DNA of 39,455 bases, from positions 1-39,455 of the IMG/VR virus record IMGVR_UViG_3300007541_009708. The stretch is one strand, 5' to 3'. This stretch comes from a virus. Position numbers and translations under genes: made by a program. Under the pieces are notes generated by a model that searched no databases, was not told the DNA's origin, and saw only the letters and a program-made list of their open reading frames with translations. Of this stretch, positions 23,866-38,091 are shown piece by piece (within the stretch, counting starts at the first letter, position 1; each line of letters starts with the position of its first letter).

Positions 23866-24576
23866 ATGGAATCACTAAAAGACAGTGGTGGGAAAAAGCC
23901 AACACCGGTAACCAACGCAACTGCAGCGAACGACGGTACCGGAACAGCGGCAATTATTACCTTTACGCCATCCGAATACATCGGCAAAGATACGATTACT
24001 TATAACGTAACGTCAAGTCCGGGGAACATAACCGTGTCTGGCGCTTCTTCGCCAATAACTGTTACAGGACTAACGGCTACGCAGTCATACACGTTCACAG
24101 TTGTTGCTACAACGAATTACGGCGTATCTTCGGACTCCGTAACCACAAACTCGGTTGCGATTGGTATTGCACCAGGAAAGCCGACCATTGGTACGGCAAC
24201 CGCAGGGAATGCCCAGGCAACAGTGGCGTATACAGCGGGAACACCAGGAACCGGAACAACAACATTTACAGCAACGTCAACGCCAGGCAACTTTACTGGA
24301 ACAGGTTCTTCTCCAATAACAGTAACTGGACTAGCAAACGGAACCGCCTATACATTCACTGTTACCGCATCGAATAGCTACGGTTCTTCGACATCAAACC
24401 CATCGAACTCCGTAACACCAGTAGCCCCACCGTATTTCCCGCCATATTTTCCCCCATTTTTTCCTCCATTCTTCCCACCGTTCTTCCCCCCCTTCTTCCC
24501 TCCCTTCTTTCCTCCCTTCTTTCCTCCCTTCTTCCCTCCGTTCTTCCCTCCATCATTCGGTCCTGGATTTAAGTGA
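23866..24576 (+). CDS. Two FN3-like domains with a PPFF-repeat tail
   Basis: This 236-residue protein has two Ig/FN3-like domains, at about 20-100 (SSPITVTGLTATQSYTFTVVAT) and 105-185 (SSPITVTGLANGTAYTFTVTAS). FN3-type domains in phages usually bind carbohydrate weakly or stack along tails. From residue 188 to 231 comes an uninterrupted array of two PPYF, eight PPFF and one PPSF tetrapeptides, followed by GPGFK. A Pro/aromatic tail of this regularity could be a polyproline-type rod, an aromatic adhesion patch or a target for modification. It is the last gene before the dioxygenase array. The start follows the previous stop by three bases. Confidence 0.78.
   Translation: MESLKDSGGKKPTPVTNATAANDGTGTAAIITFTPSEYIGKDTITYNVTSSPGNITVSGASSPITVTGLTATQSYTFTVVATTNYGVSSDSVTTNSVAIGIAPGKPTIGTATAGNAQATVAYTAGTPGTGTTTFTATSTPGNFTGTGSSPITVTGLANGTAYTFTVTASNSYGSSTSNPSNSVTPVAPPYFPPYFPPFFPPFFPPFFPPFFPPFFPPFFPPFFPPFFPPSFGPGFK
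24427..24558 (+). repeat. 12-base tandem repeat encoding PPYF/PPFF
   Basis: Eleven consecutive 12-base units, CCNCCNTWYTTY in form, encode PPYF twice, PPFF eight times and PPSF once. The plus strand is nearly pure pyrimidine over the last two thirds of the array, which could allow triplex (H-DNA) structures. The synonymous spread among units argues against very recent slippage for most of them; three adjacent units are almost identical. Confidence 0.9.
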
Positions 24577-24957: not shown

Positions 24958-25581
24958 ATGGCTTTTCATCAAGAATTTATTGGACTTGAATCACTCCCAT
25001 TTGCGGACCCATCAAATATAGTAATAATAGAGAATTTCGTATCTAGAGAGCATTTGGCAGAGGTGCTCGATTATTGTCTATCAATAACAGAATGGCAATC
25101 GCAAAGTGAACTTGGTTCTGACAGTATCCACACGCCAGAGATGATTGAGCAAAACTCTAAAAAAATTTTTTCGATTATGCAAGAATACGTAGATGAGGTT
25201 CAGAGAAGGGTTGAATTTAAATTTGGAAGATTTCTCGAAAGAACAAAACCAGGTATAAGAAAGTGGAATCCAGGAGAAAGTCAAGACGTACACGCCGACG
25301 GGGAAACTGCCGCCGGTTGGCCCGCGTATAACTACATAGTTGACTATGGTTCAATTATTTATCTAAACGATGAATACGAGGGTGGAGAATTGTTTTTCCC
25401 AAAATACAATATTCACATAAAACCCAATCCAGGGACATTGGTGTTCTTTCCATCAACAAATATGTATGCGCATGGGGTTACGGAAGTAAAGGAAGGATTT
25501 AGGTATACGTCTCCTCATTTTTGGATTCCAGTAAAAAGTAAAATTCTCATGGAAATGGCAGTCATGGACGGCCGAGAGTAA
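24958..25581 (+). CDS. 2OG-Fe(II) dioxygenase, prolyl-4-hydroxylase-like (1)
   Basis: This 207-residue protein has a double-stranded beta-helix dioxygenase core. DVHADGE supplies iron ligands H112 and D114, YAHGV supplies H172, and R182 (EGFRYTSP) probably binds 2-oxoglutarate. IIYLNDEYEGGELFFP and IKPNPGTLVFFPS are the signature segments of prolyl-4-hydroxylase-type and cyanophage 2OG enzymes. All catalytic residues are present, so it should be active on a peptide or small molecule. It is the first of four related consecutive oxygenases (24958-28248), interrupted only by the sulfotransferase-like gene. The promoter and start have no strong ribosome-binding site. Confidence 0.87.
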   Translation: MAFHQEFIGLESLPFADPSNIVIIENFVSREHLAEVLDYCLSITEWQSQSELGSDSIHTPEMIEQNSKKIFSIMQEYVDEVQRRVEFKFGRFLERTKPGIRKWNPGESQDVHADGETAAGWPAYNYIVDYGSIIYLNDEYEGGELFFPKYNIHIKPNPGTLVFFPSTNMYAHGVTEVKEGFRYTSPHFWIPVKSKILMEMAVMDGRE

Positions 25582-25590
25582 ACCGCAAAT

Positions 25591-26334
25591 TTGAAACGTC
25601 TTTACCATCTACACATACCTCGAACATCAGGACTTGGAATTTGTCATTCGCTGTGGAAGACATTTGCCAACAATGGACTTCCGTCAGATGTATTTTCGCC
25701 AGATGTTTCAACGTTGATGTACGACCATAACGCGATGCTTGACTACCCTTTTATATCAGGTCATTTTGCAAGAAATCCAATAATTGAAAGCAATGGCGAC
25801 TTGAATGTGTTCTCTTTGGTCAGGGAGCCAGTCGAACATTATCTGAGTATTGCTGCATATGTTTCTATAAGCGCTGGTAAAAAAATGTCCAATGACTACA
25901 TGGACGAATTTCTTTATGGGAATATAACCCCATTTGGAGTAAATGAACTATTTTCCAACTCAGGAAACATACAGTCGAAGATGCTTTTCTGCAGAATCAC
26001 CTTCGTGGATAAGTCTCTTGTGGCGCTGAGTAATGAAGATGTACAGAACGAAAAAAATATTGTCTTCATAGAAGCAGACATGCCGAGTGAAGAAAAAATA
26101 AAAGAATCAATTGACTCGATGAATCTATTCGCTATGAAAGATAGGCGTATAGCGATTGAGTGGCTACGAGGTGTGGTGTTGAAATCACACGGTTTTACGC
26201 TGGACAGCACTGTCTACAGTAGGGTTAATGGCTCGGAAAAAAATGGTTTCACACCAGATATCTCCCACGTAAGAGAAATAAAAAAACGCTCAGAAGTAGA
26301 CGATTACCTGTATAGGCTTGTTTTGGAAGAATAA
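25591..26334 (+). CDS. Sulfotransferase-like protein
   Basis: I take the TTG at 25591 as start (247 residues), as the next in-frame ATG would remove the key N-terminal motif. LYHLHIPRTSGLG at 4-16 matches the HIPKTGGTS phosphosulfate loop of membrane-type glycan sulfotransferases. LNVFSLVREPVEHYLSIA at 71-88 matches their LRDPVERxxS motif, with R78 and S86 at the 3'-phosphate positions. There is no membrane anchor. It probably sulfates a glycan or a protein tyrosine or serine, and could act with the neighbouring dioxygenases or the second sulfotransferase-like gene at 5292. Confidence 0.7.
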   Translation: MKRLYHLHIPRTSGLGICHSLWKTFANNGLPSDVFSPDVSTLMYDHNAMLDYPFISGHFARNPIIESNGDLNVFSLVREPVEHYLSIAAYVSISAGKKMSNDYMDEFLYGNITPFGVNELFSNSGNIQSKMLFCRITFVDKSLVALSNEDVQNEKNIVFIEADMPSEEKIKESIDSMNLFAMKDRRIAIEWLRGVVLKSHGFTLDSTVYSRVNGSEKNGFTPDISHVREIKKRSEVDDYLYRLVLEE

Positions 26335-26339
26335 TTTGA

Positions 26340-26345
26340 TATTGT
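26340..26345 (+). promoter_or_regulatory. Weak -10-like box upstream of the second array dioxygenase
   Basis: TATTGT, matching TATAAT in four of six positions, lies six bases before the ATG at 26352. The preceding gene ends at 26334 and no Shine-Dalgarno is seen, so a leaderless start is possible but weak. Confidence 0.22.
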
Positions 26346-26351
26346 TGCCGC

Positions 26352-26978
26352 ATGCAAGAAGATGCAAATTCCCCGTGGAGAATAAAACCCGGTCATTTTG
26401 GGGATGGGTTAGAAAATATCCACATATTTGAAAACTTCATTGATAATGACGACCTAAAAGTCATTCAAGATTTTTGCCCGACAATAAACGAGTGGAATAA
26501 CTCAAAAGAGAGCGTTTACGCCGAAGATGGAACATGCCTTTATAACGCTGATTACTGGAATGATAGGCAATGCAGCAGTGATATTCTACAAAGACTCTCC
26601 ATGCCGGTTTTTAAAATAATTGATAAATACATCACAAAGATGCAGTTAGAACTTGAGAGAATTTACGACCTACGGCTATCTCCTCGCCCACCAGTAATCA
26701 TGAAGTGGAGGCCGGGAATCGAACAGCGACCCCATGCCGACAAGCAACTAAACAATGGTGAACCCAATGCGTTTGTTGATTATGATTTGAATTCCCTGTT
26801 TTACTACAATGAAGATTTTGAAGGTGGAGAACTTTATTACCCGCAACACGACTTGACCATAAAACCGAAACCCGGATTGGCTATTGCTCACCCAGGAGAC
26901 GTTAATTATTTACATGGAGTCACCTTGGTTACCAAGGGGTATAGGTACACAACACCATCGTTTTACACTGTGCTGTAA
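26352..26978 (+). CDS. 2OG-Fe(II) dioxygenase (2)
   Basis: This 208-residue relative of the gene at 24958 has RPHADKQ with iron ligands H128 and D130, NYLHGV with H188, and R198 (KGYRYTTP) for 2-oxoglutarate. SLFYYNEDFEGGELYYP and IKPKPGLAIAHPG are the signature core segments. The N-terminal half (residues 1-110) is helical and diverges strongly from the first copy, as expected if substrate recognition differs. It is separated from the next oxygenase by three bases and is probably co-transcribed. Confidence 0.87.
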   Translation: MQEDANSPWRIKPGHFGDGLENIHIFENFIDNDDLKVIQDFCPTINEWNNSKESVYAEDGTCLYNADYWNDRQCSSDILQRLSMPVFKIIDKYITKMQLELERIYDLRLSPRPPVIMKWRPGIEQRPHADKQLNNGEPNAFVDYDLNSLFYYNEDFEGGELYYPQHDLTIKPKPGLAIAHPGDVNYLHGVTLVTKGYRYTTPSFYTVL

Positions 26979-26981
26979 GCA

Positions 26982-27512
26982 ATGATTTTAATTCAAAAGA
27001 ATTTTATAAAACCGAAAGAATCTGACCTACTCCTTGATTCGATTAAGGAGATAGGTTCGCCGCCCAACCTTGCAGAAGATGACCACTCAACCGGCTATTA
27101 CAGCAAATCCGCCTTACTAGAGTCCGACGTCTTCGCATACGGAATATTTAATGAGATATGCGAGCGAGTTTTGGGTTTAGCAGAAAAAGTATTTGATTTA
27201 AGCCTAGAACTAGACCAAGCCACCCTCATTAAGGTTATTCCTGGAAACACAACCGAAGAACACGCAGATAGTCAGAATCTTGACGGAACCCCAAAAACGG
27301 GCTGTAGTAATTTTCTTATCTCGGCAGTTGCGTACCTAAATGATGATTTCACTGGTGGGGACCTAGTTTTCCCGACAATGAAACATAGATACAAACCAGT
27401 CCCAGGGGATTGTGTAATATTTCCAAGTCATTTACAATATAGCCACTATGTGGATAGCGTCTTTAGCGGGGAACGAATAAGTTTGGCAATGTGGTTCTCC
27501 GGAGTATACTGA
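26982..27512 (+). CDS. 2OG-Fe(II) dioxygenase (3), short form
   Basis: At 176 residues this is the shortest oxygenase of the array. It keeps the core: TEEHADSQ with H94 and D96, QYSHYVDS with H155, and R165 (GERISLAMWF). VAYLNDDFTGGDLVFP and YKPVPGDCVIFPS form the iron-binding barrel. The N-terminal region, MILIQKNFIKPKESDLLL, has the FLS-type helix of prolyl-4-hydroxylases. The catalytic set is intact. It lies four bases before the next oxygenase gene. Confidence 0.86.
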   Translation: MILIQKNFIKPKESDLLLDSIKEIGSPPNLAEDDHSTGYYSKSALLESDVFAYGIFNEICERVLGLAEKVFDLSLELDQATLIKVIPGNTTEEHADSQNLDGTPKTGCSNFLISAVAYLNDDFTGGDLVFPTMKHRYKPVPGDCVIFPSHLQYSHYVDSVFSGERISLAMWFSGVY

Positions 27513-27516
27513 GGCA

Positions 27517-28248
27517 ATGAGAAACATTGATGTCGAGTACATAGGTGACCCCAAAGCTGGGTTTTTGGTTTATAGAAACATACTTACCGAAGACCTTAGA
27601 ATTCCAGAACGCCTAGAAGCAACAATAGGAGACAGCACCACTCCTCCCTATTCGTGGATGCAGGCCCTTGTCGGTGATGGTCAAGTAATGAAGGATTACA
27701 GGGATTGCGTTGACTGCAAGATGAGCCCGGCACATCTTCAAAACTGTCCAGAGCAATACTCAGAACTCATCAACATATACAACGACACTGTCGTTGGATT
27801 GACAGCATGCCTTCAGGACTATGAATCCAGATACAACATTCGTATGGATTTTATGGAAGCAATAAATTATGTTCGCTACACCCAGGGCCAGCATTTTAAT
27901 GTTCACGCCGACCATGGATTCTCGTATGTCTGCACTGTCTCGTCTATTATGTATCTGAATGACGACTACGAAGGCGGAGAGTTGTGGTTCCCCTATTTGG
28001 ATATAACTTTCAAGCCTCGATATGGCGACATCGTGCTATTTCCATCTACTTTCATTTACGCTCACGCAGCGAAGCCCGTCACCAAGGGGACAAAGTATTC
28101 GGCTGTAACCATGTTTGATTACAACGATAGGTTTCATGGTCGGTGGCAGGGCTATGGGAAAGACGTGAACGGCAATTCCCTCGAGTATGGTCCAGGGATT
28201 GTCGGCATCAGCACAAATCAAGCAAATCGTTTTACCTTCACGCAATGA
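27517..28248 (+). CDS. 2OG-Fe(II) dioxygenase (4) with Lys for the usual Arg
   Basis: This 243-residue protein has FNVHADHG with iron ligands H130 and D132, IYAHAAKP with H183, and SIMYLNDDYEGGELWFP plus FKPRYGDIVLFPS as core segments. At the 2-oxoglutarate-binding position it has K193 (GTKYSAV) instead of the Arg used by the other copies. Some prolyl-4-hydroxylases naturally use Lys there, so activity is likely. The C-terminus carries an extra 45 residues (RFHGRWQGYGKDVNG...) not found in the first three. A CxxC pair (C64, C67) lies in the N-terminal half. It overlaps the next gene by ATGA. Confidence 0.86.
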   Translation: MRNIDVEYIGDPKAGFLVYRNILTEDLRIPERLEATIGDSTTPPYSWMQALVGDGQVMKDYRDCVDCKMSPAHLQNCPEQYSELINIYNDTVVGLTACLQDYESRYNIRMDFMEAINYVRYTQGQHFNVHADHGFSYVCTVSSIMYLNDDYEGGELWFPYLDITFKPRYGDIVLFPSTFIYAHAAKPVTKGTKYSAVTMFDYNDRFHGRWQGYGKDVNGNSLEYGPGIVGISTNQANRFTFTQ

Positions 28249-28946
28249 CGAAAATAACTCTTAAAAAAACTCACCAGAACCCACCGCTGATTCAACAGTC
28301 TCGCATAAAGAGGGATTGGATGGACGCGACGTACAACAAACACGCTTACCAGTGCCTACCGATGACGGTGGCAAACGTTTACGGATGGGAGCTTCAAATG
28401 GAAGAAGAACTCGTCGTTCAGTGGGATGGGGGAAATACCCCTCCGGCGATTCTCTCCGGGGAGATAACCGCGTCCGGCAGGGTGCAGGCGGTGTCTTCAA
28501 TCATCGGCATGATTTCCATCAATATGGGATGGGTGATAAATACAGAGGAAGGATTTAACACCTGGATTTCTGGTCCGCCCAACTATTTCATGGATGGCGC
28601 CGTTCCCCTAACAGCTACACTACCAAGTTATTGGTGGCCAGACGAATCCCAGATGAACTGGAAAATTACAAAAATTGGAGAGCCAGTTGTTTTTGAGGCA
28701 GGCTCACCTTTTTGTTTCTTTAATATCTATGACAACACGGTTTTGGAGGGCTCTGAAATCTCGGTTCAGAATCTCTGGGACGACAAGGACCTTGTCCGGT
28801 CCCGAATGAAATACGGTGACGCAAAAGCAAGAAATAACGCGGAAAATCCATGGACTTGGACCAAGGGAATTAAAACAGGTGTTGACGCAGACGGCAAACA
28901 GATAGGGCCCACCTTTGCCGGACTGCCCAAACTGGCCAATCCCTAG
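28245..28946 (+). CDS. DUF6065-like protein of unknown function
   Basis: This 233-residue protein starts at the ATG at 28245, which overlaps the previous stop by ATGA. RDWMDATYNKHAYQCLPMTVANVYGW near the N-terminus, followed by an SGVI/NT(E)EGF region and a WPDESQMNWKITK segment, matches what I know of DUF6065 proteins, which also occur beside 2OG dioxygenase genes. There is no catalytic motif I can name. The fold looks beta-rich, with Trp/Pro-rich loops that suggest ligand binding. In this setting it may handle the substrate or product of the neighbouring oxygenases. Confidence 0.68.
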   Translation: MTKITLKKTHQNPPLIQQSRIKRDWMDATYNKHAYQCLPMTVANVYGWELQMEEELVVQWDGGNTPPAILSGEITASGRVQAVSSIIGMISINMGWVINTEEGFNTWISGPPNYFMDGAVPLTATLPSYWWPDESQMNWKITKIGEPVVFEAGSPFCFFNIYDNTVLEGSEISVQNLWDDKDLVRSRMKYGDAKARNNAENPWTWTKGIKTGVDADGKQIGPTFAGLPKLANP

Positions 28947-28959
28947 TATAGAATTAGGG

Positions 28960-28965
28960 TACAAT
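28960..28965 (+). promoter_or_regulatory. Candidate -10 box (TACAAT) in the gap before the small-protein genes
   Basis: TACAAT (five of six matches) lies 38 bases before the ATG at 29004, followed by a GTCCGGAC palindrome (28972-28979) and a GGAG ribosome-binding site. No convincing -35 box is present. Confidence 0.33.
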
Positions 28966-29003
28966 TGGGGTGTCCGGACGACTACAGGCACAATGGAGAC
29001 AGT

Positions 29004-29240
29004 ATGAAATTTGAATCCTCATTTACAACCCAGGAGAAGAAGCTCGTCTACCAGCGCACCCTCAAGGACCTGGAGAGACAGCTCATGGAGAGACTCATTC
29101 AGGAGGGTTTTGACCCTGACACGTTTGATGACAAGAACTTCGTACCGGGCTCGGACCACCACGGGATGATTCATGGCCACAAGTTGATTGTTGACTTCCT
29201 TGCAAAAATCAGCAACATCAAGTCAAAGATTGCAGAGTAA
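29004..29240 (+). CDS. Unknown small charged helical protein
   Basis: I take the ATG at 29004 (78 residues), preceded by GGAG, over an in-frame start 13 codons earlier. The protein, MKFESSFTTQEKKLVYQRTLKDLERQL..., is strongly charged and helical, with a GSDHHGMIHGHKL segment containing four His in ten residues. I do not recognise it. It opens a run of four small genes with short spacers, possibly one operon with the methyltransferase-like gene. Confidence 0.66.
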   Translation: MKFESSFTTQEKKLVYQRTLKDLERQLMERLIQEGFDPDTFDDKNFVPGSDHHGMIHGHKLIVDFLAKISNIKSKIAE

Positions 29241-29249
29241 TCTCAAAAC

Positions 29250-29483
29250 ATGGCACTGACATCCGAACAATTAGCGAAGGCAAAAGCTGAAGCGATTCAG
29301 ATACTTGAGTACTCAATCTATACGCTTGCATTCACTTTGGGCGTGGAGGACGATGACCTTGATGCGGACATGGAGAACCCAGTCAACCTATCCGTTAATG
29401 AAAATAGCGCATTGCTTGCACAGTACGATGCTTTCGAATGTCTAAAAATGCAATTGGCGGCGCTAGCAAGACTACAGGGATAA
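29250..29483 (+). CDS. Unknown small helical protein
   Basis: This 77-residue protein, MALTSEQLAKAKAEAIQILEYSIYTLAF..., is helical and acidic in its centre (EDDDLDADME). It resembles the size and helical content of its neighbour at 29004 but not its sequence. It has no recognisable motif. Its position between two other small unknowns suggests a shared transcript. Confidence 0.64.
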   Translation: MALTSEQLAKAKAEAIQILEYSIYTLAFTLGVEDDDLDADMENPVNLSVNENSALLAQYDAFECLKMQLAALARLQG

Positions 29484-29490
29484 ATTCGCC

Positions 29491-29811
29491 ATGAAGATAA
29501 ATCCCAGAATTCCAAGAAAAATTTCAATAGTCGAAGAAGCTATTAACTCAGGGAGATACGAAATCTGTCCTGATATTGACCCAGATTTCCCCAACATACA
29601 AGAGCCGCAACATAATCCCAATAGGGATTCTCAAGTTGCTAGATGGAACCCTGAATTGTTCTCATACGAGCTCCCTGATGGTGCGACATTTTTTTGTGAC
29701 CTTCTGCAATCAAACGACCCACAAAAAAAATGGGAAGAAACGGAGCCGGGCGATTTTATGCGTGACGAGTTGGTGGAAGAGATTGCAAGGGAGCTTTCGA
29801 ATGAGGCATAG
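29491..29811 (+). CDS. Unknown small protein
   Basis: This 106-residue protein, MKINPRIPRKISIVEEAINSGRYEI..., has a mixed alpha/beta look with DPDFPNIQEP and WNPELFSYELPDGATFFCDLL segments. No catalytic motif or membrane segment is seen. Its 3' end overlaps the next gene by 11 bases, so translation is probably coupled. Confidence 0.65.
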   Translation: MKINPRIPRKISIVEEAINSGRYEICPDIDPDFPNIQEPQHNPNRDSQVARWNPELFSYELPDGATFFCDLLQSNDPQKKWEETEPGDFMRDELVEEIARELSNEA

Positions 29812-30118
29812 GCTTGCTGGCGAAGGAGATTTGTACGATGCGGAAGAAGAAATCAATTACAACGAAAAACAGCTCGCAATATTCGCCAATATTCTTGATT
29901 TGGACCCACTAGACATAGATTCTATGGATATAGAGGTCGTCGTAGTTAGGCTACGCGCAATGTGGAAATATAGTAGCGACCTCAGGGGCTCAATTGAGCC
30001 AACATACACGAATAATGCCATACCTAGATTTCTTTCAAAAATGAACGCTTCGCTGACCGACCGTGCAAGAAAAGCAAATTGGAATTACGCTCTCGCCAAG
30101 GCTGCCAAAAATGGATAA
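29801..30118 (+). CDS. Unknown small helical protein
   Basis: I take the ATG at 29801 (105 residues), preceded by GGGAG; it overlaps the preceding stop by 11 bases. The open frame extends far upstream but that part lies in another gene's frame. The protein, MRHRLAGEGDLYDAEEEINYNEKQL..., is acidic and helical, ending KANWNYALAKAAKNG. There is no family I recognise. It overlaps the methyltransferase-like gene start by eight bases. Confidence 0.64.
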   Translation: MRHRLAGEGDLYDAEEEINYNEKQLAIFANILDLDPLDIDSMDIEVVVVRLRAMWKYSSDLRGSIEPTYTNNAIPRFLSKMNASLTDRARKANWNYALAKAAKNG

Positions 30119-30866
30119 CAGACAACTAAGAACAGCGATGGTGACAACGGCCATCTCCAAGTACATGTCAAGCGTTTTTGGAGAAGACGGTGTTGAAAAG
30201 GTCGCGCGCGATAGATTTGAGGGAATGCAAAGAGTCTTCAATTGGAGAAAATCACTCAATTTGAATCTTTCGATTTCCGCACGTGGAGCAACCGAGGGTT
30301 TGTGGTATGTCGACTTTCTTCAAACGCCAAAATCTGGGTGGGAAGACATGATGATAGTTGCTCAGAGCCCAATCGAATTAATGATGGCAACAAAAACCCC
30401 AAAGAAAATTTTGTCGTTTAATGCCGACATTGCGCCAGCTCCATTTTTGCAAAAAAGAAAATTTCCAGACACCCAAATATGCTTTATCAATAATCAGTCT
30501 TTGTGGAATTTTGAGAAATTCATGCGCGACTACGTAGTGGACAATGACGGAGGGAAATATTACGATGTTGACTATTCTGTTGTTGATAGACCAGAAATAG
30601 GGACCGGTGATGCCCGTGATTTTGACATGATTTTTATGCAGTCTTTTGAATTTGGAACAGACAGCGATACTCTACAAAAATGCGTTGAGGCCCTCTCTCC
30701 TGGGGGTATTTTGCTAATTAACTCGAATAATAATTCGGGTAAACTGTACCGAGACGACTATTGGTTTCACCCAAATGACGAGATGCATAAAATATTACGG
30801 ACTTTGGATGGACTGATGTTCCACGATTCCTCACTTTACGGGTTTACGGCTTTCATAAAGAATTAA
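30111..30866 (+). CDS. Methyltransferase-like Rossmann protein, partial motifs
   Basis: I take the ATG at 30111 (251 residues), which overlaps the preceding stop (ATGGATAA). The C-terminal half has the post-core pattern of class I methyltransferases: DFDMIFMQSFEFG (strand 4 with an acidic edge), DTLQKCVEALSPGGILLINSNN (helix and the LSPGG turn before strand 5) and FTAFIKN (final strand). The glycine-rich SAM motif I is not obvious. KKILSFNADIAPAPF is the best candidate region and lacks its Gly residues. Either the SAM site is divergent or the protein is a non-catalytic relative. A methyl transfer role next to oxygenases would be consistent. Confidence 0.62.
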   Translation: MDNRQLRTAMVTTAISKYMSSVFGEDGVEKVARDRFEGMQRVFNWRKSLNLNLSISARGATEGLWYVDFLQTPKSGWEDMMIVAQSPIELMMATKTPKKILSFNADIAPAPFLQKRKFPDTQICFINNQSLWNFEKFMRDYVVDNDGGKYYDVDYSVVDRPEIGTGDARDFDMIFMQSFEFGTDSDTLQKCVEALSPGGILLINSNNNSGKLYRDDYWFHPNDEMHKILRTLDGLMFHDSSLYGFTAFIKN

Positions 30867-30914
30867 GCCAATACCCCCATATTTGTGAATGCATGAGTAT
30901 AAGCCAATTTGGTC

Positions 30915-30920
30915 TATACT
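30915..30920 (+). promoter_or_regulatory. Candidate -10 box (TATACT) for a leaderless start
   Basis: TATACT matches TATAAT in five of six positions and lies eight bases before the ATG at 30929. It favours that ATG over the earlier in-frame ATG at 30893, inside whose coding sequence it would fall. Confidence 0.35.
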
Positions 30921-30928
30921 TTGGTTTT

Positions 30929-31144
30929 ATGGCAATCAATACTTTAGGTGAACAACCCCAAAAGGTAATTGAACACTACAAAAATCTGGCGCGTCTAATG
31001 CTCACAAACACCGGAGCCATTCCATTCTGGATTTATAGTCTTGAAGAGTTCGATGAAGAAGAGATTAATCACAGCGAAATCGTAGTTAATCTTGCTGAAA
31101 TGCTTTGGGAAATAGAAGTACAAGTCTCCCAAGAAAATCCATAA
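30929..31144 (+). CDS. Unknown small acidic protein
   Basis: I favour the ATG at 30929 (71 residues), MAINTLGEQPQKVIEHYKNL, because a TATACT box sits just upstream. The alternative ATG at 30893 adds 12 residues. The protein is helical and acidic, with LEEFDEEEINHSE in the middle and AEMLWEIEVQ near the end. No family recognised. It is located just before a dioxygenase gene, separated by 14 bases. Confidence 0.58.
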   Translation: MAINTLGEQPQKVIEHYKNLARLMLTNTGAIPFWIYSLEEFDEEEINHSEIVVNLAEMLWEIEVQVSQENP

Positions 31145-31158
31145 AAAGATAAACAATT

Positions 31159-31830
31159 ATGAAAATAATTGACTACTACCTAAACGATTTCATTTTAAAT
31201 GAAATAGCAGAGTCTGTGGACTTCTTCCCGGGAGTAATGCAATCCGAGTCAAGGATTGCCAGTGAGGTCAACTCATATCACAACGAACAATCTAGCTGCT
31301 ACGCCCCATATATGTTTTGGAACGGGTGGTGGTCATCGCCGGTGGATACGTTAAGAAAACGAGTAATCAAAAATATATGGGAGAGCAACCTTCCAGTGCC
31401 AATAGGGGAAGTTCTTGGGTTTGAGTACTGGACAAGGACTTTTGGGCCAGGTCAGTTTCTCGGTCCGCATGTAGACGAGGATACGTTCTTGTATCAAGAT
31501 TCAAAAGTGCTTAATGGGCCAGAAATTGGATGCGTCTATTATGGGCCGTCGCAGGAAAAAGTTGTTGGGGGGTTCCTTGAATTGTTTGAATCAAAGCTTG
31601 TATTCGGGGAAAAAAACGCTCTTGAATGGGAAAATCTACAAACAAAACTAGACCCGATAGAACTTCGTGAAAGAATTGCCTTCAAAGAAAATAGATTAAT
31701 AATATTTGACGCAGGTCGAGTAATCCATCAAACGACCCCATGCGTGTCTGGAATTAGAAACGTCATGGTTGTTAATGTATGGCTTAAATCAAACCCACCA
31801 GTGGATGTGACTAACTTTGTATATGAATGA
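31159..31830 (+). CDS. 2OG-Fe(II) dioxygenase (5), divergent
   Basis: This 223-residue protein has a GPHVDEDT segment with iron ligands H104 and D106, DAGRVIHQTTPCVSG with distal ligand H190, and R200 (GIRNVMVVNVW). FEYWTRTFGPGQF just before the first ligands and GGFLELFES correspond to the core strands. The catalytic set is complete, but the sequence differs strongly from the four copies upstream and the five that follow, so it forms a separate group. The N-terminus is Trp-rich (FWNGWWSSPV). The next gene starts within its last eight bases. Confidence 0.8.
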   Translation: MKIIDYYLNDFILNEIAESVDFFPGVMQSESRIASEVNSYHNEQSSCYAPYMFWNGWWSSPVDTLRKRVIKNIWESNLPVPIGEVLGFEYWTRTFGPGQFLGPHVDEDTFLYQDSKVLNGPEIGCVYYGPSQEKVVGGFLELFESKLVFGEKNALEWENLQTKLDPIELRERIAFKENRLIIFDAGRVIHQTTPCVSGIRNVMVVNVWLKSNPPVDVTNFVYE

Positions 31831-32440
31831 GAAGTTTGAAAGAGTAAATCTAATCAACCTGGATGTATTCATAACCAGAATTGATTCAATAGATAACAAA
31901 AAACTTTTAGAAGAAATAGAGTCTTCTAGCCTAGAAATACAAAATAGAGAATCAAATTCAATCTTGGATAGTGGGTCTATCACCTACCATGCTAGCTACG
32001 AGGACAGAAAGCTCGATAAAACTCTTCCTGAATGTTCCATGCTTTCAATAAAGATAGAGGATGTCGTATCGAGCATAGTCGGTAAAAAAATGCTAATAAC
32101 AGAGATATGGTCCTTGACCCTAAGTGCAGGGGAATCAGTATTTCCTCATAGCCACAAATCCAATACGCACATGCACCCGATGGATTACTACTCTGTTGCT
32201 TATTATCCAAACGCTCCTGCCGGTGGCTCAAAATTGTTTTTTGAAGCCTCATGGTGCGGAACAATGGAAAATTTAATCTCAATTTCTCCAGAGTCAGGAA
32301 TGCTGGTAATTTTTAATTCATACATACGCCACATGACCGACAGACACCGTGTAAGCGAGAACCGCGTAGTTGTTAGTGCAAATCTGAGCCCAGAATACCC
32401 AAATACAGCGCCAGTTCCGGACTGGTCAGCCTATAACTAG
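31823..32440 (+). CDS. 2OG-Fe(II) dioxygenase-like (6), HxH type
   Basis: I take the ATG at 31823 (205 residues), overlapping the previous gene by eight bases. The core resembles the 2OG-FeII_Oxy_5 family: VFPHSHKSNTHMHPMDYYSV with H109, H111, H116 and H118, then YYPNAPAGGSKLFF, ISPESGMLVIFNS, YIRHMTD with H170, and R181 (SENRVVVSANL). The usual HxD iron motif is replaced by HxH candidates, so iron binding may use an altered triad or the protein may be inactive. It otherwise keeps the expected order of core segments. It is the least certain member of the oxygenase set. Confidence 0.68.
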   Translation: MNEKFERVNLINLDVFITRIDSIDNKKLLEEIESSSLEIQNRESNSILDSGSITYHASYEDRKLDKTLPECSMLSIKIEDVVSSIVGKKMLITEIWSLTLSAGESVFPHSHKSNTHMHPMDYYSVAYYPNAPAGGSKLFFEASWCGTMENLISISPESGMLVIFNSYIRHMTDRHRVSENRVVVSANLSPEYPNTAPVPDWSAYN

Positions 32441-32455
32441 GCTCCAAAAATTTAC

Positions 32456-32461
32456 TATTAT
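32456..32461 (+). promoter_or_regulatory. Candidate -10 box (TATTAT) for a leaderless start
   Basis: TATTAT matches TATAAT in five of six positions and lies six bases before the ATG at 32468, with no ribosome-binding site. It may start a transcript covering the three tandem paralogues 32468-34951. Confidence 0.38.
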
Positions 32462-32467
32462 TTGACT

Positions 32468-33328
32468 ATGCCTAGAGTGATGGAAAACTTGGGTGGTGGG
32501 GTAGTCGCGTTTCATGACGCCATTGTTGTTCCATCTGCTCAAGTAATAAAAGAAATAGATGACCTTTCTGAACAGTCAATAAAACTTCAGTATGAAATAG
32601 TTTTTGACGAACATGGAGTTCCGGTCCACGCAATAAATAAAAGCGGATTTATCTACGAGCTGGACGCGATAGCAAAAACGCCAATTAGGATTCAACAGCT
32701 ATCGAATTCATTTTTTAGGGAATGCGAAGATGCTGCATACTCATGCCTGATGGAATATGTCGAAATGTTTCCAGCAATACTCCAGTGCCTGTGGTGGAGG
32801 AGCGAAGGGCATGCACTAAAATACCCAACCGGCTCAAAGCTTGGATTTCACTGTGATAATGATGTGAACTACAGGTATGGGCAGATTCCCCAATTTGAAC
32901 ATGCCACTAGAAACGTAATAAGCGTAATTGTCTACATAAACAGCCATGTTGATAACGGGGTTAATGAACATAGTTTTTCCGGTGGGGAAATGGTTATACC
33001 GTATTTTGACCTCACCATAAAGCCAAAGAGCGGCACAATCCTATTTATGCCAGCCAACTACATGGGCGCTCACGAAATAATGGAAATAACATCAGGGTCT
33101 AGGTATTCGTATTTGATGTGGTTTGCACAAGGCTCACCGGACGAGCCAAAGGGAATATCCCCACAGGAGCCATCAGATTCACATAGGGAGCATGTAGGCG
33201 GTCAGTGGTGGATGCCAACTATAGTGGAAGACTATGAGAGATATCTTGTGGAAAAATATGGTAGCGACGGCAATATGCCAATCGGCGTCGCTCCATTTAA
33301 GTCAAGAAAAAATGACCATAAGCACTAA
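32468..33328 (+). CDS. 2OG-Fe(II) dioxygenase (7), LGGGVV group
   Basis: I take the ATG at 32468 (286 residues), supported by a -10 box just upstream. It founds a five-member group that opens with LGGGVVxFxxAI (here 8-19) and carries LWWRSEGHALKY before the iron motif. Iron ligands are H128 and D130 (GFHCDNDVNY), distal H202 (GAHEI), and R212 (SRYSYLMWFAQG) binds 2-oxoglutarate. FSGGEMVIPYFDLTIKPKSGTILFMP holds the core strands. An extended C-terminus (HREHVGGQWWMPTIVEDYERYLVEKYG) is shared with other members. A large aromatic iron-site motif, HxDNDxNY, marks this group. All catalytic residues are present. Confidence 0.85.
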   Translation: MPRVMENLGGGVVAFHDAIVVPSAQVIKEIDDLSEQSIKLQYEIVFDEHGVPVHAINKSGFIYELDAIAKTPIRIQQLSNSFFRECEDAAYSCLMEYVEMFPAILQCLWWRSEGHALKYPTGSKLGFHCDNDVNYRYGQIPQFEHATRNVISVIVYINSHVDNGVNEHSFSGGEMVIPYFDLTIKPKSGTILFMPANYMGAHEIMEITSGSRYSYLMWFAQGSPDEPKGISPQEPSDSHREHVGGQWWMPTIVEDYERYLVEKYGSDGNMPIGVAPFKSRKNDHKH

Positions 33329-33335
33329 TTGAAAC

Positions 33336-34226
33336 ATGCTATTCAACGACGTATCAGCGGAGCATCTTGGAGGCGGTGTCGTCGTGTTTCGCCACGCCAT
33401 CGAACTTGACTGGGATAAAGCAAACCGAATCGCAAAAGAAATTGTCGACAGGGAAGTCGAGGAGATGTACCAGCCCGCAGTAAACCCAGATACCGGGCAG
33501 GAGGAATACGTAAATAAAAGCGGATACTTTTTCTCTAAAAATGGCATTGACAAAATGCCCAAAAGAGGCTCTAGGGTTCATCAGGACAGGCGGCCAGAGG
33601 TGGTCGAATTGTTCGAGTTTATTGAAGAGGCAAAAGATAAGTACCTTTACAAATATATGCACATGTTCCCATTGGCATTTAAGAACATTTGGTGGAAAGT
33701 AAAAGGCCACCTGGTGAACTACTCGTCCAGTTGTGGTGGATACATCGGGGAGCATAGTGATACGAGTGTTGATTATTTCTATGGGGTTCCACACCCACAG
33801 CACCAACTTGCCTCCAGAAACACTCTTTCATGTCTGGTTTATTTTGGGAACTGTGTTGACGGTTCTGAACTTAATGAATTCGGCGAATTCACCGGAGGGC
33901 ACCACAAATTCACGTACCTTGATATCGATTATGTCCCAAAACGTGGCGATATCCTGATGTTTCCATCAAATTACATGGCGGCACATGAAGTAACTCCAGT
34001 CGAATCTGGAGACAGATATACCTACCTGGGTTGGTATGCCCACGGAACACCAAACCCCGAGGTTAACGAAGAGGTGGAGGACCCGTTGCTTAACCCGGAA
34101 AAAGCAGCTATTTCGTCAAACGTATATATCCCGTATATACGAGAAAGGTTTCTTGCCTATCTCGATTCGGTCAACGAAGATAAATCCTCCAAAACTTACA
34201 GACTGGCACTCGGTGAACACGCATGA
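33336..34226 (+). CDS. 2OG-Fe(II) dioxygenase (8), LGGGVV group
   Basis: This 296-residue paralogue of the gene at 32468 starts seven bases after its stop. EHLGGGVVVFRHAI (9-22) and NIWWKVKGHLVNY precede the iron motif GEHSDTSVDYFYG (H140, D142). Distal ligand is H217 (AAHEV), and R227 (DRYTYLGWYAHG) probably binds 2-oxoglutarate. FTGGHHKFTYLDIDYVPKRGDILMFPS is the core. The C-terminal VYIPYIRERFLAYLDSV region matches the group's extension less well. Its stop overlaps the next start by ATGA. Intact catalytic residues predict activity. Confidence 0.85.
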   Translation: MLFNDVSAEHLGGGVVVFRHAIELDWDKANRIAKEIVDREVEEMYQPAVNPDTGQEEYVNKSGYFFSKNGIDKMPKRGSRVHQDRRPEVVELFEFIEEAKDKYLYKYMHMFPLAFKNIWWKVKGHLVNYSSSCGGYIGEHSDTSVDYFYGVPHPQHQLASRNTLSCLVYFGNCVDGSELNEFGEFTGGHHKFTYLDIDYVPKRGDILMFPSNYMAAHEVTPVESGDRYTYLGWYAHGTPNPEVNEEVEDPLLNPEKAAISSNVYIPYIRERFLAYLDSVNEDKSSKTYRLALGEHA

Positions 34227-34951
34227 AAATAATGCATCTAGGCTCTGGGATAGTTTTCATCAAAAACATCATCGACCTTACGGAAGATGACGAGAAGGAA
34301 ATTAGGTCGCTTTTTTATTCAACGGCACCTCAGGGGTATTCGGTTGTAGATGGAAAAACGATTAGCGATGGCGGCTATGAATTTGATGAAATAGGCAAGG
34401 CAAAGGCCCCACTTCGATATACAGATATGTCCAAATTCGGGCTCGCAGAGAAGTTGCGTGGCGCAATATATCGTGGCGCGGTCGAGTATTGCAAGGTGTT
34501 TCCGGTTGCCGCAGAGTGCATAACCGGACACACGGATGGATACATGATTAGGTATGTTCCAGGAAACGACATGGGGCCGCACTCGGATTGCAATATTCCA
34601 TACAAGCCTGGGACGCTCGAGCCACTAGTAATTAGCCCGGCATTCAATACCCTAACCACATCGATATTTTTAAATAATGACTATGAGGGCGGCGACGTAA
34701 TGTTCCGAATCTGGGGGATAACTGTCAAACCAGAGATTGGCTCTGCGTTGATATATCCTTCAAATTTTATTGGATGTCACGAAGTTGGCGAAGTCACCGC
34801 AGGCGAAAGATGGGCATTTCTTAGCTGGTTCTACCACGGCAACGGCCAGGAGAATAAACCAAATGCCATGGAATGGGTCCAGCAGTTCAGGTCGGATGTC
34901 AGCTTTGGAAACGCAATGCAAAAAACGGTGCTCGTTGGAGAAGTCGACTAA
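34223..34951 (+). CDS. 2OG-Fe(II) dioxygenase (9), LGGGVV-related, shorter
   Basis: This 242-residue protein is a shorter relative of the two preceding genes and overlaps the former by ATGA. LGSGIVFIKNII (6-17) corresponds to the group's opening motif. YMIRYVPGNDMGPHSDCN gives H120 and D122, GCHEVGE gives H186, and R196 (GERWAFLSWFYHG) completes the set. LNNDYEGGDVMFRIWGITVKPEIGSALIYPS forms the core. It lacks the 40-residue C-terminal extension of the longer copies. It ends in a four-base convergent overlap with the NAD-binding gene. Confidence 0.85.
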   Translation: MKIMHLGSGIVFIKNIIDLTEDDEKEIRSLFYSTAPQGYSVVDGKTISDGGYEFDEIGKAKAPLRYTDMSKFGLAEKLRGAIYRGAVEYCKVFPVAAECITGHTDGYMIRYVPGNDMGPHSDCNIPYKPGTLEPLVISPAFNTLTTSIFLNNDYEGGDVMFRIWGITVKPEIGSALIYPSNFIGCHEVGEVTAGERWAFLSWFYHGNGQENKPNAMEWVQQFRSDVSFGNAMQKTVLVGEVD

Positions 34952-35490
34952 AAAAGCCTGCCAAATTTGGTTCGGTTCAAAGACTTAGCCGATTCTGGGC
35001 AAATATGGGTTTTCCATAATCCATCAGAAAATAGAAGCTCTACAATTTTTGCCGATTTCCAATTTCCAGAAAGATACAGATTTCTTACATCCTCGCCACC
35101 ACCCTGGTCATACCCAAGTGGATACCCCCTGAACAGGGCTTCGACATACTCGACATTTGCCGAGTCTGCAATGCGGGAAATATGTAATTCAGATGCCTCG
35201 CCATGAAGATTATTGCCATCCACATATATGCCTTTATACCCGAGCTCAGCGGCAATCTCTATTGTGTCTTCAGCTATCCCTCCCCTGCCAATACAAAACA
35301 CGATTTGAGAAGAAGAAAATACGTCTTGAATTGATGGATGCTCTACTGTCCCAACCATTTCTCTTGCTGGGACAACGGTTGATTCGGAACGCCCAAAACC
35401 ACTCCAGTGGACGACATGCCCTGCCGCAATCATGCTTGAGGCAATGGTTCTTCCCATTGCGCCCATAGATACTATGCCGACTTGTCGCAT
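34948..35490 (-). CDS. Short NAD(P)-binding protein, 6PGDH/3-hydroxyisobutyrate-dehydrogenase-like, lacking the C-terminal domain
   Basis: This 180-residue protein starts MRQVGIVSMGAMGRTIASSMIAAGHVVHW, the N-terminal pattern of the 3-hydroxyisobutyrate/6-phosphogluconate dehydrogenase NAD-binding domain, with a GxxGxMG-type turn (SMGAMG at 8-13). SSSQIVFCIGRGG, YKGIYVDGNN and ALFRGYPLGYDQGGG follow in the order expected. Family members are about 290 residues and carry a C-terminal all-helical domain with a catalytic Lys. This protein stops at the end of the Rossmann domain, so oxidoreductase activity is doubtful unless it dimerises with another protein. No frameshift is apparent. It is the last gene of the minus-strand block. 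Confidence 0.73.
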   Translation of the reverse strand: MRQVGIVSMGAMGRTIASSMIAAGHVVHWSGFGRSESTVVPAREMVGTVEHPSIQDVFSSSQIVFCIGRGGIAEDTIEIAAELGYKGIYVDGNNLHGEASELHISRIADSANVEYVEALFRGYPLGYDQGGGEDVRNLYLSGNWKSAKIVELLFSDGLWKTHICPESAKSLNRTKFGRLF

Positions 35491-35493
35491 TGG

Positions 35494-36480
35494 TTAGCTC
35501 TTTATATTCAGCGGGTTGACGTAACCCTTTTCACCCTCAAGATTCCTGACCAATACATCGATACGATTTATATTTTCAGCAGAATCGGGATGCTGTAGGG
35601 ATGAGTAATTTCTATATTTTTCATAGTCATCAAAAACTGTATCTATCCAGTGTGGCATGCACCAGGTCTGAACATCGCCGGGCTCTAAAACCTCAATTCG
35701 CGAATTAACATCTGGACTTCCCTGGGAAAAGAATTCGAGGTAGGCATATCTCGTGCCGCCGGTGACAGTGTTTACCCCATGCGAAGCAACGTAATTTGTA
35801 GGGAAAATTACGATGTCTCCCCGCTTTGCCTTGTGTGATATTCCCAAATATGGGAAATACAGTTCTCCACCGCTGTAATTGGTGCCATCCAGCTCCTCTG
35901 TGGTTTCAACACAGTCATTGATGTAGAGGAGTACGGCAACTGTTTGGCGAGCACCAACCTGACCGTATGGGATATACCGCTCCCCTCCAGTGGCTCTGTA
36001 GTTCGTGTCGTTGTCGTTGTGAAGACCAAGATACTTGCCCTTGTCGTACCTCAGTACGTGTCCCCGGTTTCTCCACCATATGGTTCCAACCACAAGAGGG
36101 AACAGGTCGATGTATTTCATTAACGACTTGTAGATTGAGTCTTCCCATGAGCGAAAAATATCGACAACATTCTGCTCGGTAGAGTCTTGTACCGGCTCAA
36201 GAACTCTGACTGGAACTGCCTCTACTTGGTCTATTGAGAATTTGTTGCCGTCTTCGTTTTTTGCATAGACAACACCGTTTACATCAATGTCGTATTTCCA
36301 TCTTTGCTGGTGGGCGGCTAATGCATTCTTGTCAATCCAGGACGACATGAGAGGTAGGTCGACATTTACGGCGTCGTGGAAAACAACAACCCCTCCGCCG
36401 AGGTCGGTAAACTTGAGGTTGAATATTTCCTCAAGGACCTCATCGGTCATTTCTGGAGTATCTACTTCATATCGTTTCAA
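35494..36480 (-). CDS. 2OG-Fe(II) dioxygenase (10), LGGGVV group
   Basis: The start is a TTG at 36480 (328 residues), backed by AGAGGTGA a few bases upstream; the ATG ten codons later has no such site. LGGGVVVFHDAV (27-38) and WWRNRGHVLRY precede the iron motif LGLHNDNDTNY (H154, D156). ASHGV gives H234, and R244 (TRYAYLEFFSQG) binds 2-oxoglutarate. YSGGELYFPYLGI and RGDIVIFPTNY form the core. The C-terminus, CMPHWIDTVFDDYEKY, matches the long copies. It is most similar to the next gene, with which it overlaps by 14 bases. Its orientation is opposite to the copies at 32468-34951. Confidence 0.86.
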   Translation of the reverse strand: MKRYEVDTPEMTDEVLEEIFNLKFTDLGGGVVVFHDAVNVDLPLMSSWIDKNALAAHQQRWKYDIDVNGVVYAKNEDGNKFSIDQVEAVPVRVLEPVQDSTEQNVVDIFRSWEDSIYKSLMKYIDLFPLVVGTIWWRNRGHVLRYDKGKYLGLHNDNDTNYRATGGERYIPYGQVGARQTVAVLLYINDCVETTEELDGTNYSGGELYFPYLGISHKAKRGDIVIFPTNYVASHGVNTVTGGTRYAYLEFFSQGSPDVNSRIEVLEPGDVQTWCMPHWIDTVFDDYEKYRNYSSLQHPDSAENINRIDVLVRNLEGEKGYVNPLNIKS

Positions 36481-37465
36481 TTTGATTCACCTCTTGCGCA
36501 ATGTGTGTTTCGCCGTACTGCGTTACACATCTATTCTGGAACACGGGATTGGCTCCCAGTTCCAAGTCTGGCGTTGGGTGTGACCAAATTGAGTACTCTG
36601 ATTTGCAATAGCGCTCGTAGTCATCATAGATGTCATCGAACCAAACTGGCTCACACCATTGATAGCTTGAATCTTTTTCTTTAATTCTGATATTTGCCTG
36701 AGCGTCGGTTCCACCTTGGCCAAAGAATGATAGGTAGGCATACCTAACACCACCCTCCATTTTGGTCACTCCATGGGCACAAATGTAGTTTGTTGGGAAC
36801 ATGATTATGTCCCCCTTTTGTGGCTTGTAGTCGATTCCAAGATAAGCAAACTTTAGGTGCCCGCCGGCAAAATTCGTTCCGTCCAATTCTTCTTTGGTGT
36901 CAACACAATCATTGAAATATGCAAGAGCACCTGCGGTTTGCCTGAGAGCAACCTGCCCTCTGGGCATGTATCTGACGCCCTGGGTGACCTTATAGTTTGT
37001 GTCGTTGTCCTGGTGCCAGCCCAGGATGCCGCCTCCCTCGTATCTGAGCACATGCCCCCTGGTTCTCCACCATAGGCTCCCGACTATGAGCGGGAACATG
37101 TCTGTATATCTGATTAGGCACTTATAAATGGCGTTTTCAAGCTCCGTAAAGTACGCCCTGGTATATTCATCGGTTTCGTCATTAACGGGCTCCAGAAGCC
37201 TCACAGGCGCGTCTGGGACGTCTTCTAGGCGATACCTGAAGCCGTCTTCGTTTATGCCGTATTCGACCCCATCTTCGCCAGTCACATACTCCCATCTCGA
37301 CTCATGTGCCTTGGCCGCGCATTCGTCAATATGTTGCAAGATTCTTTCGTCAACAATAAATGCGTTCTTGAATACAACAATCCCGTTTCCAAGGTCCTCC
37401 ACTACGAGTTGCGATATTTCCAAGAGTTCCTTGTCGCCAATTATCGGTGTTGACGGCATTCCCAT
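36467..37465 (-). CDS. 2OG-Fe(II) dioxygenase (11), LGGGVV group
   Basis: I take the ATG at 37465 (332 residues), two bases after the upstream stop; an ATG 14 codons earlier overlaps that gene. The protein has DLGNGIVVFKNAF near the N-terminus, LWWRTRGHVLRY, LGWHQDNDTNY (H151, D153), CAHGV (H231) and R241 (VRYAYLSFFGQG). FAGGHLKFAYLGIDYKPQKGDIIMFPTNY is the core and EPVWFDDIYDDYERY ends the conserved part. It is clearly the closest relative of the gene at 35494, implying a tandem duplication. It is probably co-transcribed with the peroxidase-like gene upstream. Confidence 0.86.
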   Translation of the reverse strand: MGMPSTPIIGDKELLEISQLVVEDLGNGIVVFKNAFIVDERILQHIDECAAKAHESRWEYVTGEDGVEYGINEDGFRYRLEDVPDAPVRLLEPVNDETDEYTRAYFTELENAIYKCLIRYTDMFPLIVGSLWWRTRGHVLRYEGGGILGWHQDNDTNYKVTQGVRYMPRGQVALRQTAGALAYFNDCVDTKEELDGTNFAGGHLKFAYLGIDYKPQKGDIIMFPTNYICAHGVTKMEGGVRYAYLSFFGQGGTDAQANIRIKEKDSSYQWCEPVWFDDIYDDYERYCKSEYSIWSHPTPDLELGANPVFQNRCVTQYGETHIAQEVNQIETI

Positions 37466-37467
37466 AA

Positions 37468-38091
37468 TCAACCGACCAAAAAGGAAACTGCTTCCATGAC
37501 CGTCCATGAAGAACCAGCAGCAAGTGGTTTTGTTGCAAGTGGCAGGTCAGCCCAGTTAAATCTTCCGACTTGTTGCCCGTCTCGACTTACTAGAAACTTT
37601 TCATAGTTATGGGGGATTCGCATTATTGCTTGTCCTGCAAGATTTTGCCCAACAGCGGCATTGTGTGAACCATCAGCTTTGTTGTCGTCAAAGGAACGAA
37701 CTAGGTCGCCTTTAACAAAGCTCCAAATTTTGTGTTCGTTTGGTCCGTTAACCTCTATCTTCTCGGTGATTGGAAAAGAAACAAACGGGTAGGCCTCGGA
37801 AACAAACTGCGAAATTTGCTCATTTGGAGATGGCTCCATTTCCCCAAATTGGTTACACGGAAACGCAACCACACTAAATCCCTTATCGGCAAACTTTTCA
37901 TGAAGTTGCTGCAACTCCCATAGCTGCCGAGATGCCCGAGCGTACGACCAAACTGGACTACATTTTGGCGAGTATCCAGCCTTGGATACAATGTTCACAA
38001 ACAGGCAGACTTTCCCGCGGACTAAGTCCATCACATTGTGTGAACCGTCGACAGATGTGATTGGGATATCAAAAACAGAACGATGACTCAT
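37468..38091 (-). CDS. Glutathione-peroxidase-like protein with altered active site
   Basis: This 207-residue protein shares the glutathione-peroxidase fold and several motifs. FSVVAFPCNQFGEMEPSPNEQI at 72-93 is a near-perfect match to the family, with catalytic Gln (Q81), and HNYEKFLVSRDG at 161-172 keeps the Asn (N162). The canonical peroxidatic position, NVASxCG, reads NIVSKAG, with Ala (A38) instead of Cys; a Cys lies six residues on (C44) in an insertion of about 13 residues absent from typical members. The catalytic Trp is replaced by His. It may use C44 or C79, or have lost peroxidase activity. It overlaps the gene upstream (ATGA) and precedes the two dioxygenases. Confidence 0.78.
   Translation of the reverse strand: MSHRSVFDIPITSVDGSHNVMDLVRGKVCLFVNIVSKAGYSPKCSPVWSYARASRQLWELQQLHEKFADKGFSVVAFPCNQFGEMEPSPNEQISQFVSEAYPFVSFPITEKIEVNGPNEHKIWSFVKGDLVRSFDDNKADGSHNAAVGQNLAGQAIMRIPHNYEKFLVSRDGQQVGRFNWADLPLATKPLAAGSSWTVMEAVSFLVG

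Follow-up and report, generated by a model that had tools for sequence, protein, structure and literature searches.

Plant extensin-type hydroxyproline-rich proteins carry Pro- and aromatic-rich repeats that are hydroxylated by small prolyl 4-hydroxylases (P4Hs). Aquatic phages commonly carry "auxiliary" genes for 2-oxoglutarate (2OG) oxygenases. Viral P4Hs are known, and how viruses use them has been called cryptic (PMC9301287); the same source names vCPH of Paramecium bursaria chlorella virus 1 as the earliest evidence that viral proteins contain hydroxyproline. Phage proteins of PHROG 61 have been described as structurally similar to the human prolyl hydroxylase EGLN3, with no substrate given (PMC12774648). 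Here we analyze a linear virus fragment of 39,455 bases (IMG/VR record IMGVR_UViG_3300007541_009708; the window, in full) in which eleven 2OG-Fe(II) oxygenase genes form an array at 24958-37507. We propose that the array probably supplies the enzymes of a phage module, whose role would be to hydroxylate prolines of the fn3-(PPFF)n fiber protein encoded by the same phage. Genes are named by their lower coordinate (Table 1).

The locus resembles several described systems in part. Like vCPH, it appears to encode a small virus-borne P4H (27517), for which the vCPH structure 5c5t is a fold match; vCPH, however, is one enzyme from a giant virus of algae, and the phage has a multienzyme set tied to a repeat protein and to a DUF6065 protein. 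With the collagen prolyl 3- and 4-hydroxylases of animals it shares two enzyme types, Pro-Pro pairs, and a repetitive structural protein, together with profile matches to prolyl 3-hydroxylase 1 (P3H1) and P4H, but its repeat is PPFF or PPxFFx rather than Gly-X-Y, its partner protein is different, and its host is that of a phage. Plant extensins and algal P4H likewise combine Pro- and aromatic-rich repeats with a small P4H, and 27517 has a fold match to algal P4H with (Ser-Pro)5; this is a likeness of logic only, with no common substrate sequence. The cyanophage 2OG oxygenases of PHROG 61 belong to the same superfamily, but neither DUF6065 nor the fn3-PPxF protein had a match in 50,697 deposited phage records, and one class of the array enzymes (group A, below) likewise had no match in deposited phages. 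The open-access literature that we searched held no mention of DUF6065, no earlier description of the repeat or of such arrays, and no report of hydroxyproline-rich phage fibers.

The Array Tracks a Repeat Protein and DUF6065

A first-pass annotation of the window had described the array as looking like a dedicated modification system and overlooked the likely substrate gene, 23866-24576, which is separated from the array by one small gene (24573-24902). We compared the gene content downstream of the 20318 fiber gene in 80 contigs that share it, with locus genes called by our own script for the longest open reading frames. In the main clade (fiber 75-100% identical), contigs with enough sequence always had a 23062-like gene, the fn3-PPFF protein, and 2OG genes, in that order, and DUF6065 was present in nearly all contigs that reached far enough. 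Cousins with a fiber 55-66% identical had zero to four 2OG genes downstream of the fiber gene and, in that region, no DUF6065 call and no PPxF repeat. A distant clade (L078, L080, L081, L083, L084) carried six 2OG genes and DUF6065, and the protein in the repeat slot had no detectable BLAST similarity to the repeat protein of the window but contained a (PPNFFA)n repeat. DUF6065 exceeded its cut-off in 20 of 20 array records and in 0 of 21 others with the same fiber gene, and PPxF repeats split alike. Related long records contained 7-12 PF13640 genes each, cousins without the array contained one or two, and only 3 of 30 control viral records had any, which puts the number of 2OG genes here far above background.

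We also searched viral contigs at the DNA level for nothing but the repeats, using (PP[FY]F)3 and PPxFFxPPxFFxPP with (Pro-Thr)6 as control. The resulting repeat loci are a sample rather than a census (at least 239 loci, 120 and 119 listed for the two patterns). Among the matches listed, 2OG genes occurred at 3.15 and 3.18 per 10 kb in the two repeat scans and at 0.08 in the control, in which no locus had three or more; DUF6065 was present in 59 of 120 and 80 of 119 repeat loci and in 2 of 120 control loci. When these matches were strongly dereplicated, a 2OG gene was found in 38 of 60 clusters vs. 4 of 103 for the control (Fisher P = 4e-17) and DUF6065 in 26 of 60 vs. 1 of 103. The nearest 2OG gene lay downstream of the repeat gene in all 30 dereplicated cases, on the same strand in 28 and no more than two genes away in 28. 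At the level of whole records, again among listed matches, DUF6065 occurred in 21 of 24 repeat records and 1 of 30 controls. In a sample weighted to loci without a nearby 2OG gene, 23 of 28 whole records still carried PF13640 genes (up to 15), compared with 3 of 30 controls. The PPFF pattern was rare in cellular genomes, which yielded 11 stretches among 257 billion bases; the repeat fell within a called gene in three of these, all with DUF6065 within 5-8 kb.

The reverse scan used a DNA motif of DUF6065. All 66 new DUF6065 loci carried 2OG genes, at 5.7 per 10 kb, and the repeat was found upstream in 10 of 11 loci with 5 kb and 21 of 28 with 3 kb of sequence, compared with 1 of 120 controls. 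When six repeat-negative loci were inspected, four had the variants PPHF, PPPF, or PPYFPPSF. With the threshold set between 150 and 100 bits, 158-162 of 166 modules contained both the P3H-like and the P4H-like enzyme family, and of 172 genes directly upstream of DUF6065, 152 encoded the P4H-like enzyme. The group A, 31159, and 31817 families were found in only part of the modules. The conserved core, whose members are co-located and co-occur, consists of the repeat protein, the P3H-like family, the P4H-like family, and DUF6065. The idea of a dedicated system beside fiber genes is supported, in that the position of the array is conserved and its presence tracks the repeat protein and DUF6065 across hundreds of phage contigs, but its core is smaller than eleven enzymes. 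The array genes were not scattered.

One related record, G004, contains a second module in inverted orientation (L102:3386-9080, equal to G004:33100-38794). This module has an fn3-PFF repeat protein of its own; besides DUF6065 and three 2OG genes, it holds a Cys-rich protein, a further conserved companion, and a DXD glycosyltransferase that matches PF04488. Some modules gain 2OG genes of the TauD type and the Asp/Asn beta-hydroxylase type (L566:1927-2718, L341:2370-2957).

Catalytic Sites and Resemblance to Prolyl Hydroxylases

Each of the eleven array genes is recognized by PF13640 or PF13759, in agreement with the first-pass count. Nine reach the curated Pfam cut-off, and 26352 and 31159 fall just under the 27-bit line with the triad kept. 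As had been read from the sequence, ten have the metal motif HxD...H with a distal Arg or Lys, and 31817 has HxH. The metal sites are intact: over 143 representatives, the first His is present in 142, the second position is Asp in 130 and His in 9, the distal His is present in 140, and the Arg/Lys in 141. Orthologue pairs gave median ratios of nonsynonymous to synonymous substitution of 0.02-0.22 across the eleven genes (31817 and 26982 being represented by just two and three pairs, respectively). All eleven are under purifying selection, and none looks decayed.

Profiles divide the enzymes into five classes: P3H-like (24958, 26352, and, more loosely, 26982), P4H-like (27517), group A (32462, 33336, 34223, 35494, 36467), 31159, and the Oxy_5-type 31817. 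Mutual identity within group A is 25-51%, which points to old duplications. In the 13 members of the 31817 family, the HxH, the distal His, and the Arg are all invariant, and the HxH is therefore a stable trait of this family.

Searched against the PDB, the 27517 profile matched a Bacillus P4H first (E 1e-7), followed by PiuC, lysyl hydroxylase LH3, another P4H, and P3H1. The 27517-type core enzyme is predicted to take a prolyl-hydroxylase fold: a model of 27517 (pLDDT 88, with a low-confidence C terminus) retrieved prolyl hydroxylases almost exclusively in a fold search (Z ∼17-20.3), among them Trichoplax PHD (20.3), Pseudomonas putida P4H (20.2), algal P4H with (Ser-Pro)5 (20.1), PHD2, and vCPH (17.6). 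In P4Hs, a Lys ten residues past the distal His is expected to bind the 2OG carboxylate, and the collagen 4- and 3-hydroxylases show a Lys/Arg split at this place. The same split occurs here. H183 and K193, the latter ten residues past the distal His, are invariant in 62 sequences of the 27517 family, and the 24958/26352 family has an invariant Arg at the corresponding place. The best PDB match of the 24958/26352 profile (A5) is human P3H1 (E 2e-14, 16 bits over the next). By profile and fold, the 27517 family is peptidyl prolyl 4-hydroxylase-like and would be expected to hydroxylate proline within a peptide; the 24958/26352 family, judged by similarity, may be specific for the 3-position. The group A profile (A4) matched PKHD hydroxylases best and then P3H1, the 31817 profile matched uncharacterized structures only, and the 31159 profile had no match in the PDB. 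Among eight members of the 31159 family, the metal residues are invariant.

The Putative Substrate and DUF6065

The Pro and Phe codons of 23866-24576 are mixed along the repeat (CCA 6, CCC 6, CCT 6, and CCG 4; TTC 14 and TTT 5), so it is the amino acid sequence that is kept, not the DNA. The repeat is 40% Pro and 38% Phe with <1% charged residues and lacks Lys and Arg, and Phe-Phe is as constant as Pro-Pro across both repeat types (PPFF and PPxFFx). With this composition, the unmodified tail should be very hydrophobic, and hydroxylation would raise its solubility. Gene order suggests that the protein resides in the virion. We rejected identity with collagen, as the repeat contains no Gly-X-Y and reads PPYF/PPFF. 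Many PPxFFx proteins have a Hint/intein-like domain C-terminal to the repeat; those at L279:8640-9968, L329:3986-5305, L290:5920-7581, and L343:1-1020 start with Cys-x-x-Asp-Thr, and several end in His-Asn. The Pfam family Intein_splicing scored under its cut-off for these ends, and the proteins are possibly self-cleaving fiber proteins. Among the papers listed for the string PPFFPP, most concern PR-39, a proline-rich antimicrobial peptide, and its relatives; we take this as no more than a resemblance.

The start codon of DUF6065 at 28245 was chosen by alignment. The protein is predicted to fold like a dUTPase (model pLDDT 91.5; Z 11), and the idea of a further 2OG fold was rejected on that ground; it had no match to dUTPases among PDB sequences (dUTPase motifs were not scanned). 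We take it to be an enzyme partner that may have a helper role. A conserved 255-aa companion family (KACPAxLDxFxTGYVxKTPCD) without a Pfam match is encoded near DUF6065, at L258:3716-4483 and by related genes in a further 93 loci.

Proposed Mechanism and Alternatives

In the mechanism that we propose, the 27517-type enzyme would hydroxylate one proline of each Pro-Pro pair at the 4-position around virion assembly, and the 24958/26352-type enzymes would hydroxylate the other at the 3-position, mirroring what Pro-Pro undergoes in collagen. DUF6065 would be their partner and might, for example, present the repeat to them; in this clade, the extra group A enzymes may contribute additional hydroxyls, perhaps to phenylalanine. 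The repeat, nearly chargeless before modification, would gain solubility and stiffness or offer sites for sugar attachment, and could serve as a fiber tip or spacer that contacts the host. More broadly, we suggest tentatively that a widespread and undescribed phage system may build a novel hydroxylated Pro/Phe biopolymer on the virion, with paired 3- and 4-prolyl hydroxylases, further hydroxylases, the dUTPase-fold helper DUF6065, and, in some cases, Hint-like self-processing or sugar attachment. If so, the purpose of many phage 2OG oxygenases would be explained.

Several points weigh against proline hydroxylation of the repeat. A shared fold is no proof of substrate. Eleven enzymes exceed the needs of one repeat, and nothing links the families of 31159, 31817, and the PhyH-type protein at 6430 specifically to proline. 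Some repeat records are poor in 2OG genes, with none in five fragments of 13-38 kb and one in an 88-kb record. The link itself could also reflect co-transfer of a fiber cassette whose enzymes act elsewhere. The many enzymes of several families, the TauD- and Asp/Asn-hydroxylase-type genes of some modules, and the constancy of Phe-Phe would also suit peptidyl hydroxylases of the repeat whose main target is Phe/Tyr, or aromatics together with Pro, with beta-hydroxylation or cross-link precursors as possible outcomes; we judge this unlikely, since both universal families match prolyl hydroxylases best by sequence, and 27517 does so also by fold.

A cassette whose enzymes and repeat merely travel together, with another virion protein, a host surface protein, or a glycan as the target, would account for the glutathione peroxidase (GPx), NAD-binding, sulfotransferase-like, and glycosyltransferase genes that arrays also hold and for the rare repeat proteins with one or zero 2OG genes. 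We consider it a somewhat poorer candidate still, because the pairing holds for two repeat types, in both search directions, and in the second module of one genome, with a fixed order within two genes. Phage 2OG genes are usually filed under auxiliary metabolism (PHROG category), and the enzymes might accordingly use amino acids, lipids, or other free small molecules as substrates or shift the host's oxygen/2OG balance; this seems very improbable, as it leaves the tie to the repeat protein and DUF6065 unexplained and the closest relatives of the enzymes act on peptides. DNA base modification of the TET/JBP kind was rejected as having next to no likelihood: the PF12851 matches of 24958 and 36467 (19.5 and 15.8 bits) lie far under the 34.9 cut-off, and the fold and profile matches are to peptide hydroxylases.

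Hydroxylation of the repeat by the core enzymes, our preferred explanation, gives phage 2OG oxygenases a candidate substrate class and a minimal four-gene core, and it is directly testable on a short repeat peptide, PPYFPPFFPPFF. If it is true, phages make fibers rich in hydroxyproline, and perhaps also in hydroxyphenylalanine, with the kind of chemistry seen in collagen and in the cell walls of plants, and DUF6065 gains a biological context.

Genome Type, Host, and Neighboring Genes

The window contains lysis genes and a run of fiber and other virion structural genes at ∼9-24 kb, with the array downstream of this run. The 20318 virion protein is 45% identical to cyanomyovirus proteins, e.g., those of S-H9-1 and S-PM2. 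Related records are as long as 170-174 kb, and a PHROG scan of the near-complete G004 found a tail sheath, portal, major head protein, terminase, and ribonucleotide reductase, indicating a contractile-tailed phage. A search for T4-type Gp23 matched no record, with positive controls equally silent, and was hence uninformative. The first-pass annotation had placed the array in the context of cyanobacterial phages. Five of six related records carry the actinobacterial gene WhiB, and psbA was found in none of the six searched; the host is therefore probably an actinobacterium, and we rejected a cyanobacterial host as improbable.

Table 1. Features of the window, with coordinates, strand, and supporting matches
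Feature	Coordinates	Strand	Evidence
PhyH-type 2OG oxygenase, outside array	6430..7281	-	PF05721 64.6 bits
Virion structural (fiber) protein	20318..23083	+	phrog_5838, 902 bits; anchor for finding relatives
Minor tail/fiber protein between fiber and repeat genes	23062..23862	+	phrog_21510, phrog_18179, phrog_8780; order kept in relatives
fn3 protein with C-terminal Pro-Phe tail, proposed substrate	23866..24576	+	fn3 43.6 bits; tail PPYFPPYF(PPFF)nPPSFGPGFK
2OG oxygenase, prolyl 3-hydroxylase-like family	24958..25581	+	PF13640 38.8 bits; HAD..H..R; profile A5
Accessory protein, weak sulfotransferase resemblance	25591..26334	+	PHROG 3347 E 0.0098; no Pfam match
2OG oxygenase, prolyl 3-hydroxylase-like family	26352..26978	+	PF13640 23.2 bits (cut-off 27); HAD..H..R; profile A5
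2OG oxygenase, loosely P3H-like	26982..27512	+	PF13640 44.9 bits; HAD..H..R; nearest class profile A5, 89.7 bits
2OG oxygenase, prolyl 4-hydroxylase-like core family	27517..28248	+	PF13640 50.2 bits; HAD..H..K
DUF6065 protein	28245..28946	+	PF19541 152 bits vs. cut-off 26.6; ATG at 28245 overlaps 27517 stop
Conserved neighbor, first called methyltransferase-like	30063..30866	+	no Pfam match; homologues at same place in relatives
2OG oxygenase, separate family	31159..31830	+	PF13640 24.5 bits; HVD..H..R; metal residues invariant in 8 members
2OG oxygenase-like, Oxy_5 type	31817..32440	+	PF13759 35 bits, phrog_81 82 bits; HSH..H..R
2OG oxygenase, group A paralogue	32462..33328	+	PF13640 38.1 bits; HCD..H..R; profile A4
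2OG oxygenase, group A paralogue	33336..34226	+	PF13640 41.1 bits; HSD..H..R; profile A4
2OG oxygenase, group A paralogue	34223..34951	+	PF13640 35.5 bits; HSD..H..R; profile A4
NAD-binding dehydrogenase-like, inside array	34948..35490	-	PF03446 25.1 bits (cut-off 21)
2OG oxygenase, group A paralogue, inverted	35494..36480	-	PF13640 39.2 bits; HND..H..R; 50% identical to 36467
2OG oxygenase, group A paralogue, inverted	36467..37507	-	PF13640 35 bits; HQD..H..R; profile A4
Glutathione peroxidase-like, array end	37468..38091	-	PF00255 91.7 bits

The first-pass calls for the DUF6065 and peroxidase-like neighbors and for the PhyH-type gene were borne out by the Pfam scores in Table 1. The sulfotransferase call for 25591 was only marginal, and the methyltransferase call for 30063 found no backing in Pfam. 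Genes related to 25591 occur in 42 loci near DUF6065. Two GPx-like genes, 4485-5363 and 37468-38091, flank the fiber region, and GPx-like genes near the array are also kept in relatives. Upstream of the fiber genes, the minus-strand segment 4485-8333 holds sulfotransferase, methyltransferase-like, PhyH, and glycosyltransferase genes, possibly a second modification cluster. A 682-aa protein of many divergent repeats (GLHTAPRTATGSG...) is encoded at 10391-12439, near a Gly-rich adhesin-like gene at 15439. The gene at 1105-4290 encodes a 1,061-aa protein with a signal-like N terminus, Thr-rich stretches, and a membrane-like C terminus; it has no PHROG match and resembles a host-type surface protein.

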